NCBI GenBank assembly: GCA_021821785.1
Contig: JAKACD010000013.1
Coordinates: 1 to 34,633 of the forward strand
Direction of reading: 5' to 3'
From: Thermoplasmata archaeon
GTDB lineage: Archaea; Thermoplasmatota; Thermoplasmata; Lutacidiplasmatales; UBA184
Length of the DNA stretch: 34,633 nucleotides
Shown here: piece after piece, positions 16,343 through 18,322 of the stretch
Layout: the number at the start of each line of letters is the position of its first letter
Position numbering within the stretch: the stretch's first letter is position 1
Notes under the pieces: generated by a model
The model's input: only the letters and a program-made list of their open reading frames with translations
The model's database searches: none
What the model was told of the DNA's origin: nothing
Translations under genes and position numbers: made by a program

Positions 16343-16418
16343 GAGTTTGCGTCGGAGGCCATTCAGATTCGTGCCCTCCTGCGGCCTCTCGACCGGACGA
16401 CCGCCCATGCAGGGAAGA

Positions 16419-16492
16419 TGGACTGGTCGGGATTTGAACCCGAGGCCTCCGGTTTGCAAAACCGGCGATCTTCCGGACTGATCTACCAGCCC
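16419..16492 (-). tRNA. tRNA-Ala (UGC)
   Basis: A complete cloverleaf is present. The acceptor is GGGCTGG/CCAGTCC, the D-arm GATC...GATC, the anticodon stem CCGGT/ACCGG with loop TTTGCAA (anticodon TGC), and the T-arm TCGGG-TTCAAAT-CCCGA. The discriminator is A and no CCA is encoded. The G3:U70 wobble pair, the main alanine identity element, is present. There is no intron. Confidence 0.95.
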
Positions 16493-16520
16493 ACGGCCGT
16501 GGCACGGAGCGGCCCATGCC

Positions 16521-16530
16521 TTAGCTTTTC
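16521..16530 (-). promoter_or_regulatory. Possible TATA box of tRNA-Ala
   Basis: The minus strand reads GAAAAGCTAA, about 29-38 bases upstream of the tRNA 5' end. It overlaps the stop codon of the NUDIX gene. The match to consensus is weak; the call rests mainly on spacing. Confidence 0.35.
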
Positions 16531-17270
16531 GGCACCGGCCGGCCGCTCACTTGGTTCCAGGCTCGATCGAGCTTTGGAACGGTCGGCCGCTGTCGGATCT
16601 CTCGGGGATCGACCCACTCGGCGCGGGCGGATTCCCAGTCGAGACGGATCTCCGGGGCTCGGACGAGGAAGCGGAACGGGAACACGACGAACACCCGGGT
16701 CCCGTCCCGGGCCAGGACCGGATCCCCCTCCGCCGCCAGGGCGAGGTCCTCACGGGCCATTCCGACCTCCTCTGCGATCTCGCGGTACGCTTGCTCGAGG
16801 GGGGTCGGGTCCTCGAGGTAGCCCGAGATCCCCGCCCACCGGCCCCGGAAGCTCCCAACCTTGTCGGACCTCTGGAGAAGGAGGATCCGGCCGTCCTCCC
16901 GCTCGAGGAACGCCGTCACGACCAGCACCTCCTCCACCCCCACGATCGCGATCGTGCCCTTGGAACCGTTCACCTCGACCCGCTCGCCCTCGAGCAGAAG
17001 GTCGACGTCGGCCCCGGCGACTGTCGGGAGCGGGGGTCCACCGGCGGTCGGGCCGGTGGGCAGGCCGAGGAGGATTGCCGCCCGGGCGTTCGTCGGCAAC
17101 GGGTGCGGCGGGGGCCACCAGAGCGCCGGAACGACCGTCACCTCGGGCCCTTCCCGGTCCGAGCTCCACGCGATCGGGTCGTCGACAAGATGGACCTGGC
17201 CCGTGGCCCAACCCGGGGCGACCGGGAGGAGGGGCAAGGACATGCTCCGACCGAGCGCGTGTCTGCTCAT
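16521..17270 (-). CDS. NUDIX hydrolase with N-terminal PEP-utiliser-like swivel domain
   Basis: The product is 249 aa (ATG 17270; an in-frame ATG at 17243 would give 240 aa). Residues of about 15-110 resemble the mobile phosphohistidine domain of PEP-utilising enzymes: 'VAPGWATGQVHLVDDP', 'NARAAILLG', 'LPTVAGADVDLLLEGERVEVNGSKGTIAI'. Where those enzymes have TSHAAI, this one has NARAAI, so the phosphorylated His is absent. Residues of about 113-230 form a NUDIX domain with the box 'GYLEDPTPLEQAYREIAEEVGM'. The REUxEExGU core is intact, but the preceding Glu is missing and the spacing is one short. NUDIX enzymes cleave nucleoside-diphosphate-linked compounds; the substrate here is unknown. The swivel-domain call is by eye. 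Confidence 0.75.
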   Translation of the reverse strand: MSRHALGRSMSLPLLPVAPGWATGQVHLVDDPIAWSSDREGPEVTVVPALWWPPPHPLPTNARAAILLGLPTGPTAGGPPLPTVAGADVDLLLEGERVEVNGSKGTIAIVGVEEVLVVTAFLEREDGRILLLQRSDKVGSFRGRWAGISGYLEDPTPLEQAYREIAEEVGMAREDLALAAEGDPVLARDGTRVFVVFPFRFLVRAPEIRLDWESARAEWVDPREIRQRPTVPKLDRAWNQVSGRPVPKS

Positions 17271-17332: not shown

Positions 17333-18322
17333 GTGAAGCTCAGCGCCTTCTCGGTAGTGGACGAGTACGACGGGGCCGAACGCTCCCGTCGTCTCCTCGA
17401 CGTTCTGGCGCTCGCGGGGGCCGCGGAGACCGGCGGGCTCTCCGCGCTCTGGGTCGCGGAGCACCACTTCCACGCGGGGGGCGTATGCCCCTCGCCGCCC
17501 ATCCTCCTGGCCGCCGCGAGCGGGAAGACCCAGCGGCTGCGTCTCGGCGCGCTCGTCAGCGTTCTCCCGTTCCACTCACCGATCGAGCTCGCCGAACAGT
17601 ACGCGATGGTCGACCGGCTCTCGGACGGCCGGTTGAACCTGGGAGTGGGGAGCGGCTACATCCCGATGGAGTTCGCCGGGTTCGGAGTCGATCCCGAGAC
17701 CAAGCGCGCGCGCTTCGACGCCGGGCTCGATACGCTGCTCGCGGCGTTCCGCGGCGACGAGGTTCGAGCGGTGGGCCCCGGGGCGACGGCGGTCCGGATC
17801 AACGTCCGGCCGGTCCAGACACCGCATCCTCCGATCTGGGTGGCGGTCCAGCGCCGGGAGGCGATCCCGTTCGTGGCCGCACGAGGCTGGTCGATCGCGC
17901 TCATTCCGTACGCCACGCTCTCCGGACTTCCCGAGCTCGCCGAGGAGGTCCGAGAGTTCCGGTCCCGCCGGCCCGCCGGCTCGCGAGGTGAAGTGGCGGC
18001 CGGCTTCCACCTCTACGCGGGCGATCACCCGGACCGCGCCCGCGCCGCCCTTCAGCGCTATCTCGACAGCCGTCGGGCGACGCAGAGCGCCTTCTACCTC
18101 GAGAAGGTCGCCCGCGACGCGTCGCACGCGAGCGCCAAGACGATCGAGGAGAGCGGTTTCGCGCTCATCGGGTCACCCCGCGAGGTGGCGCGGCGGCTCG
18201 AGGCGGTCGCCGAGACGGGGGTCGACGAGGTCCTCGGTCTGTTCGATTTCGGCGGGCTTCCCACGGACGAGGTGGCCCGTTCGGTGATCGCGCTCGGGCG
18301 GGCGCTTTCGGCGTCCCTGTGA
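17333..18322 (+). CDS. LLM-class (luciferase-like) flavin-dependent oxidoreductase
   Basis: The product is 329 aa from the GTG at 17333. The ORF open from 16265 is a GC artefact overlapping the minus-strand NUDIX gene and tRNA. Luciferase-like signatures are 'FSVVDEY' at the start, 'GLSALWVAEHHF', 'SPPILLAAASGKTQRLRLGALVSVLPFHSPIELAEQYAMVDRLSDGRLNLGVGSGYIPMEFAGFG' and the late 'GSPREVARRLEAVAETGVDEVLGLFDFGG'. It is a TIM barrel using FMN or F420. The cofactor and substrate cannot be decided from sequence. It is divergent from the NUDIX gene with 62 bases between them and no clear TATA box. Confidence 0.85.
   Translation: MKLSAFSVVDEYDGAERSRRLLDVLALAGAAETGGLSALWVAEHHFHAGGVCPSPPILLAAASGKTQRLRLGALVSVLPFHSPIELAEQYAMVDRLSDGRLNLGVGSGYIPMEFAGFGVDPETKRARFDAGLDTLLAAFRGDEVRAVGPGATAVRINVRPVQTPHPPIWVAVQRREAIPFVAARGWSIALIPYATLSGLPELAEEVREFRSRRPAGSRGEVAAGFHLYAGDHPDRARAALQRYLDSRRATQSAFYLEKVARDASHASAKTIEESGFALIGSPREVARRLEAVAETGVDEVLGLFDFGGLPTDEVARSVIALGRALSASL

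Follow-up and report, generated by a model that had tools for sequence, protein, structure and literature searches.

A NUDIX hydrolase gene of a Thermoplasmata archaeon that very probably carries a non-catalytic remnant of a phosphomevalonate dehydratase small subunit

Introduction

The window analysed here, a stretch of 34,633 nucleotides making up contig JAKACD010000013.1 of a Thermoplasmata archaeon, encodes a NUDIX hydrolase preceded by about a hundred residues of unfamiliar sequence, and the question it raises is where that N-terminal domain came from and what it is still doing there. A first-pass annotation, made from the letters alone, had taken it for the mobile domain of a PEP synthase-type enzyme without its phosphohistidine, perhaps turned into a binding module, and had proposed comparison with the small subunit of phosphomevalonate dehydratase (PMDh), an AcnX protein. 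PMDh is archaea-specific and was characterised recently. We followed the gene through a phylum-wide search of 390 genomes, then through searches with PF01989 (small subunit) and PF04412 (large subunit) in 80. Genomes (G), loci (L), genera (g) and families (f) carry our own labels, g1 and f1 being the genus and family of the window; the window genome, G000, is a metagenome-assembled genome (MAG) of 1.69 Mb in 99 contigs, 91% complete.

Results

The fusion gene and its surroundings

The reading frame at 16521-17270 on the reverse strand is open across 249 codons and does encode a NUDIX hydrolase fusion, with PF00293 at residues 117-232 (E 5.7e-11, 43 bits against a cut-off of 21.1). Starting at the ATG at 17270 would give 249 aa; the second ATG is the most likely start because homologs begin there (Table 1). 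The gene is present in one copy in G000, and its homologs occur in 46 of the 106 genomes of the window's order, so it is a real gene and not an annotation artefact, the doubt that the first-pass annotation had proposed to settle by seeking the same domain pair in other genomes. One match is a Thermoplasmata MAG, YP4.bin112. A pattern scan of contigs yielded one true relative (L031) and five short, doubtful matches. In most of the family a luciferase-like monooxygenase (LLM, PF00296) gene is conserved beside the fusion gene, in divergent orientation. Promoter and terminator scans of the window were uninformative for an archaeon.

Table 1. Features of the fusion gene and its flanks (positions in the window)
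Feature	Position	Strand	Remarks
Fusion gene (decayed swivel-NUDIX)	16521..17243	-	likeliest start ATG 17243, 240 aa
Decayed AcnX swivel domain (putative PMDh small-subunit relic)	16935..17243	-	residues 10-112 of 249; hhalign, PDB profile, AlphaFold2
LWWPP motif	17109..17123	-	at place of lost GSTVG catalytic loop
NARAAI	17073..17090	-	pairs with AcnX strand GVGPVAI
NUDIX hydrolase domain	16545..16934	-	PF00293 E 5.7e-11; nearest folds 3grn, NudI, BdRppH
NUDIX box GYLEDPTPLEQAYREIAEEVGM	16758..16823	-	22 residues; RE..EE glutamates present
Luciferase-like (LLM) oxidoreductase gene, divergent	17333..18322	+	PF00296 E 4e-52; synteny
tRNA-Ala(TGC)	16417..16493	-	immediately downstream of fusion gene

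The NUDIX domain

The NUDIX box, GYLEDPTPLEQAYREIAEEVGM, is slightly non-standard, as had been noticed at first reading: it has one residue fewer than the canonical 23-residue GX5EX7REUXEEXGU and is missing the first Glu. The short box is common to nearly all proteins of family f1 (three g2 proteins have the full length), and in other parts of the class most relatives have a full-length box; departures from the canonical box are known within the NUDIX superfamily. The metal-binding RE..EE is present (R154, E155, E158 and E159 in 240-aa numbering), and in the 31 proteins with a decayed N-terminal domain, described below, E155 and E159 are kept in all and E158 in 30. AlphaFold2 modelled the whole window protein with a pLDDT of 94.5, and structure comparison of the NUDIX domain gave the nucleotide hydrolases 3grn, NudI and BdRppH as closest folds; NCBIfam equivalogs were matched only far below their cut-offs. 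The predicted substrate is most likely of the nucleoside-diphosphate-X or NTP type, and we favour a house-cleaning nucleotide-type hydrolase.

Neighbouring genes of stand-alone NUDIX relatives were named by eye from their sequences. In f33 the NUDIX gene directly follows a PurQ-like gene at all nine loci (L103, L108, L116, L117, L118, L121, L123, L124 and L125), which suggests a link of the NUDIX domain to nucleotide metabolism; a search of open PMC for PurQ with NUDIX in archaea returned no relevant paper. In f22, f45 and f52 the gene directly upstream of it is PIN-KH ATPase-like (six of six loci: L102, L112, L113, L114, L119 and L120), and at two further loci a radical SAM gene adjoins it. 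No isoprenoid gene stood beside stand-alone relatives outside the class at the loci read. We considered whether the divergent NUDIX of f4 might itself be decayed and rejected this, as the f4 boxes retain their glutamates. About two thirds of g1 genomes are without the fusion gene, and the NUDIX is therefore dispensable in that genus.

Ancestry of the N-terminal domain

Neither Pfam nor NCBIfam gave a useful match to the N-terminal domain of the window protein (for PF01989, none at all), and its homology came out only via intermediate sequences. Modelled from decayed relatives only, the domain folds confidently (AlphaFold2 pLDDT 93.2, pTM 0.85), and Foldseek ranked the phosphohistidine domain of rifampin phosphotransferase best (E 2e-5, TMq 0.61-0.67), with the small subunit of TkAcnX (7cnr_B, E 1.6e-3, TMq 0.65) and then PPDK and pyruvate kinase below it. 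The swivelling type of fold proposed in the first-pass annotation is thus borne out, and on the predicted structure its PEP-utiliser impression looks geometrically sound; by itself, however, structure comparison makes no choice between a PEP-utiliser and an AcnX origin.

Fold cannot settle this ancestry; intermediate sequences do. Genera g2-g5 of the window's family have a textbook AcnX swivel as their N-terminal half (SFLGEIDPxTGxVDN...FPEARGSTVGPYVIYG...ADAIVVSAAVIARIPCV), matching PF01989 at E ~1e-25 to 1e-28 in the same reading frame as the NUDIX and constituting the sole PF01989 in those genomes. The intact half matches PF01989 at E 2.6e-25 and the DUF126 model at 1e-36 across residues 1-128. 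A profile of the intact g2-g5 swivels matches 7cnr_B at 3.7e-41; the 31 decayed domains (from g1, g6 and g7) align with the intact fusions at an hhalign probability of 99.1 (E 7.6e-19); and a profile of the decayed domains only, run against the PDB, finds 7cnr_B (TK1248) first (E 7.8e-6) and PEP synthases next (7.7e-4). By sequence descent, then, the N-terminal domain derives from the AcnX swivel of the PMDh small subunit, and the comparison suggested at the outset proved a sound one.

The identification of NARAAI as a degenerate TSHAAI does not survive alignment, in which NARAAI pairs with the AcnX strand given in Table 1. The stretch matching TSHAAI is VSAAVIA of the intact relatives, which Pfam pairs with positions 37-72 of the PEP-utiliser profile and which is largely deleted in the window protein, where alignment finds neither a TSHA phosphohistidine motif nor a remnant at the right place. 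No histidine was lost, as the ancestor had none there. A swivel without its catalytic residue, fused to a NUDIX, is correct as first read; a PEP-utiliser domain deprived of its phosphohistidine is not, since the sister orthologs keep an AcnX swivel with Ser62 and Thr63.

The fusion across the class

In all 63 sampled genomes, drawn from 12 further families of the class, the sole PMDh small subunit (PMDhS) is a PMDhS-NUDIX fusion, and there the large-subunit match is followed by the single PF01989 match within roughly 80-120 bp. Outside the class, PMDhS and NUDIX are separate genes in all eight genomes tested. In f5 PMDhS stands alone with no NUDIX match; at L105 of G171 and in G138 it follows the large subunit, and a NUDIX relative was not found. 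The NUDIX half may there have been either lost or never joined. Six f6 genomes are without both. In f1 most fusion genes no longer lie beside the large-subunit gene; in G004 the two are still adjacent. Our search for the fusion covered this phylum, plus one pattern scan beyond it, and in open PMC we found no paper on a PMDhS-NUDIX or DUF126-NUDIX fusion; the class-wide fusion from which the window gene descends is apparently undescribed, and it is a more interesting object than the window protein itself.

Decay of the swivel

The upstream LLM gene is common to all 31 decayed loci and to the intact loci of g4 and g5, and in the NUDIX tree the decayed g1/g6/g7 clade is nested within intact f1 genes, beside g5 (127 columns; moderate support, 83 for the node that encloses it and 47 for the clade of decayed forms). 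The intact and the decayed form are therefore two states of one gene. In the small subunit of TkAcnX, Ser62 is the general base and Thr63, Val64 and Leu27 line the substrate site (PMC8184944). All intact f1 proteins have L27, S62, T63 and V64, the residue numbering coinciding by chance in the G015 protein; every decayed protein, that of the window included, has either lost the Ser-Thr-Val loop or has other sequence in its place.

Pairwise identity in the N-terminal half is 0.70 among intact proteins vs. 0.29 among decayed ones; for the NUDIX it is 0.54 and 0.61. By simple Nei-Gojobori estimates on short segments, dN/dS of the N-terminal half is 0.00-0.18 when intact and 0.18-0.57 when decayed; as it stays below 1, and as AlphaFold2 agrees, the decayed domain should still be folded and somewhat constrained. 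A subclade that includes the window protein bears LWWPP in place of the lost loop: WWP or WWPP occurs in 15 of the 31 decayed members, and one further member has WPP at this position. A half that evolves fast yet under constraint, with this motif, is compatible both with a scaffold retained for structure and with a modest new function.

The tree shows at least four separate decays: in f3, in f16, in one paralog of G004, and in g1/g6/g7. The two G004 paralogs (L047 and L052) form a reciprocal pair, one with an intact swivel and a ruined NUDIX box, the other with a decayed swivel and its NUDIX glutamates. Because the two copies decayed reciprocally, the halves have separable roles.

Probable replacement of the mevalonate step

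The PMDh large subunit (PF04412) has no match above cut-off in g6, g7 and most of g1, and G000 has only sub-threshold, partial matches. Strong matches to the decarboxylase family PF22700 are found in 20 of the 22 g1 genomes tested, two of three in g6 and five of five in g7, and in none of the 11 genomes of g2-g5; most of these genomes are MAGs, in which a single absence is weak, and the pattern holds across genera. Match strength is E ~1e-60 in g1, g6 and g7, including G000, and 3e-48 in f16; the G000 protein also clears TIGR01240 (241 vs. 171 bits). Decarboxylase-type mevalonate pathways have been reported independently in Thermoplasmatota, the phylum of Thermoplasmata (PMC11052028). In f16, G419 has no PMDh, a decarboxylase, and a decayed swivel with a live NUDIX, a triad that arose independently of the one in g1/g6/g7.

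Other genomes depart from this pattern. One genome each of f7, f9 and f19 has both decarboxylase and PMDh, with the fusion intact, so the switch between them is not one-for-one; these genomes may plausibly represent an intermediate state. In f3 a decayed fusion accompanies a stand-alone PMDh operon, and PMDh loss is therefore not the cause of decay in that family. G036, G039 and G018 have neither a strong decarboxylase match nor PMDh, possibly because these MAGs are incomplete.

Five g1 genomes (G030, at L061:2971-6633, and G031, G043, G077 and G092) encode a type I-like AcnX in which small and large parts are joined (S-L). At the G030 locus, read alone, this gene adjoins one for a UbiD-family decarboxylase, a pairing that resembles the steps of PMDh and tAHMP decarboxylase. 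As a replacement PMDh in the five genomes the joined AcnX was rejected: its best score was to cis-3-hydroxyproline dehydratase, below cut-off.

Discussion

We consider it very probable that the product of the window gene is a NUDIX hydrolase that is still live, joined to a PMDh small-subunit relic that no longer catalyses but is maintained structurally. Its ancestor would have been bifunctional, with a PMDhS of AcnX type II, whose general-base serine served mevalonate 5-phosphate dehydration, and a C-terminal NUDIX, an architecture that is widespread in this archaeal class. In the window lineage an ATP-dependent (di)phosphomevalonate decarboxylase presumably took over the archaeal-type mevalonate step, and the large subunit of PMDh was lost; the swivel half would then have shed its catalytic loop, persisting as a folded, fast-evolving, non-catalytic domain, while the NUDIX half retained its metal-binding residues. 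The sequences themselves establish the gene's origin, the fusion, the orthology, the missing catalytic residues, the absence of PMDh and the presence of a decarboxylase; we infer that pathway replacement was the cause of the decay, that the NUDIX half is active on the predicted substrate class, and that the relic has a purely structural role.

Among other accounts of the swivel half, a gain of function after PMDh catalysis ceased, such as binding of a partner or ligand or control of the NUDIX site, with LWWPP as its signature, is the one we take most seriously, though we think it unlikely. It would explain why dN/dS stays below 1 and the fold is confident, why LWWPP or a close variant sits at the old catalytic loop in 16 of the 31 decayed members, and why not one of the decayed homologs has trimmed the domain off; but identity of only ~0.29 among decayed members sits poorly with a specific new role, LWWPP is confined to one subclade, and a folded N-terminal domain may serve just the solubility or dimerisation of the NUDIX. 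We judge it very improbable that the domain descends from a PEP-utiliser swivel and turned into a binding module after losing its histidine. In favour of this, the Foldseek top matches are rifampin phosphotransferase phosphohistidine domains (E 2e-5) and PPDK, so that on structure alone the decayed domain scores slightly better by E-value against PEP-utiliser swivels than against AcnX, and PEP synthases come second in the profile search. Against this, same-locus orthologs carry the full AcnX swivel, even the decayed-only profile prefers AcnX, NARAAI is off the TSHAAI position, and no PEP-utiliser domain with a TSHA motif was fused to this NUDIX at any locus read. It is hardly credible that the degraded swivel still partners an unrecognised large subunit in a working PMDh: the fold is kept, but the Ser62/Thr63 loop is deleted, PF04412 is below cut-off in G000, most of g1, g6 and g7, and the decarboxylase route is present.

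The NUDIX half, for its part, might serve the mevalonate pathway, for instance by converting isopentenyl diphosphate (IPP) to the monophosphate (IP), with its fusion to PMDh serving to balance flux. There is a precedent in plants, where NUDIX enzymes turn IPP into IP and so oppose isopentenyl phosphate kinase, and across most of the class the domain is fused to, and in an operon with, a pathway enzyme. We nevertheless find the proposal rather improbable: stand-alone relatives lie beside PurQ, PIN-KH ATPase or radical SAM genes, the NUDIX outlives PMDh loss in several lineages and splits from PMDhS in G004, and its closest folds are nucleotide hydrolases. A bolder form, in which the fused NUDIX is an isoprenoid-diphosphate hydrolase opposite isopentenyl phosphate kinase, the polypeptide setting flux at two steps and the window protein keeping the valve, is a speculation to which we give little credence.

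If the relic interpretation is right, a core lipid pathway was swapped in this lineage, the fused subunit became a relic, and the partner domain survived. With its several independent repeats and its one pair of reciprocally decayed duplicates, this is a clean system for asking whether the domains of a fusion are coupled in function. The biochemistry of PMDh in the class has probably been read as that of half a protein, because its small subunit carries a NUDIX on which no paper was found.

Among known systems, the PMDh small subunit (AcnX type II, DUF126/PF01989; TK1248, PDB 7CNR/7CNS; APE_2089) is the N-terminal domain's ancestor. Over residues 1 to ~128 the intact sister genes match it, with Ser62, Thr63 and Val64 retained. 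In the window protein the catalytic loop and ~28 residues are missing, and PF01989 gives no detectable score; the small subunits known so far occur either alone or, in type I AcnX, fused to the large subunit, not to a NUDIX. The PEP-utiliser mobile domain (PF00391) shares the swivelling beta/beta/alpha fold class, with a structural match at E 2e-5, but AcnX and the window protein are without the phosphohistidine position, and the ancestry differs. With NUDIX hydrolases of the MutT/NudI/BdRppH type (3grn, 3oga, 3ees) the C-terminal domain shares the fold, the RE..EE metal ligands, and RS and G-x-W elements ahead of the box; in contrast to them, the window box is one residue shorter, without the first Glu, and its subfamily has conserved HPF and DWEHTE motifs of its own.
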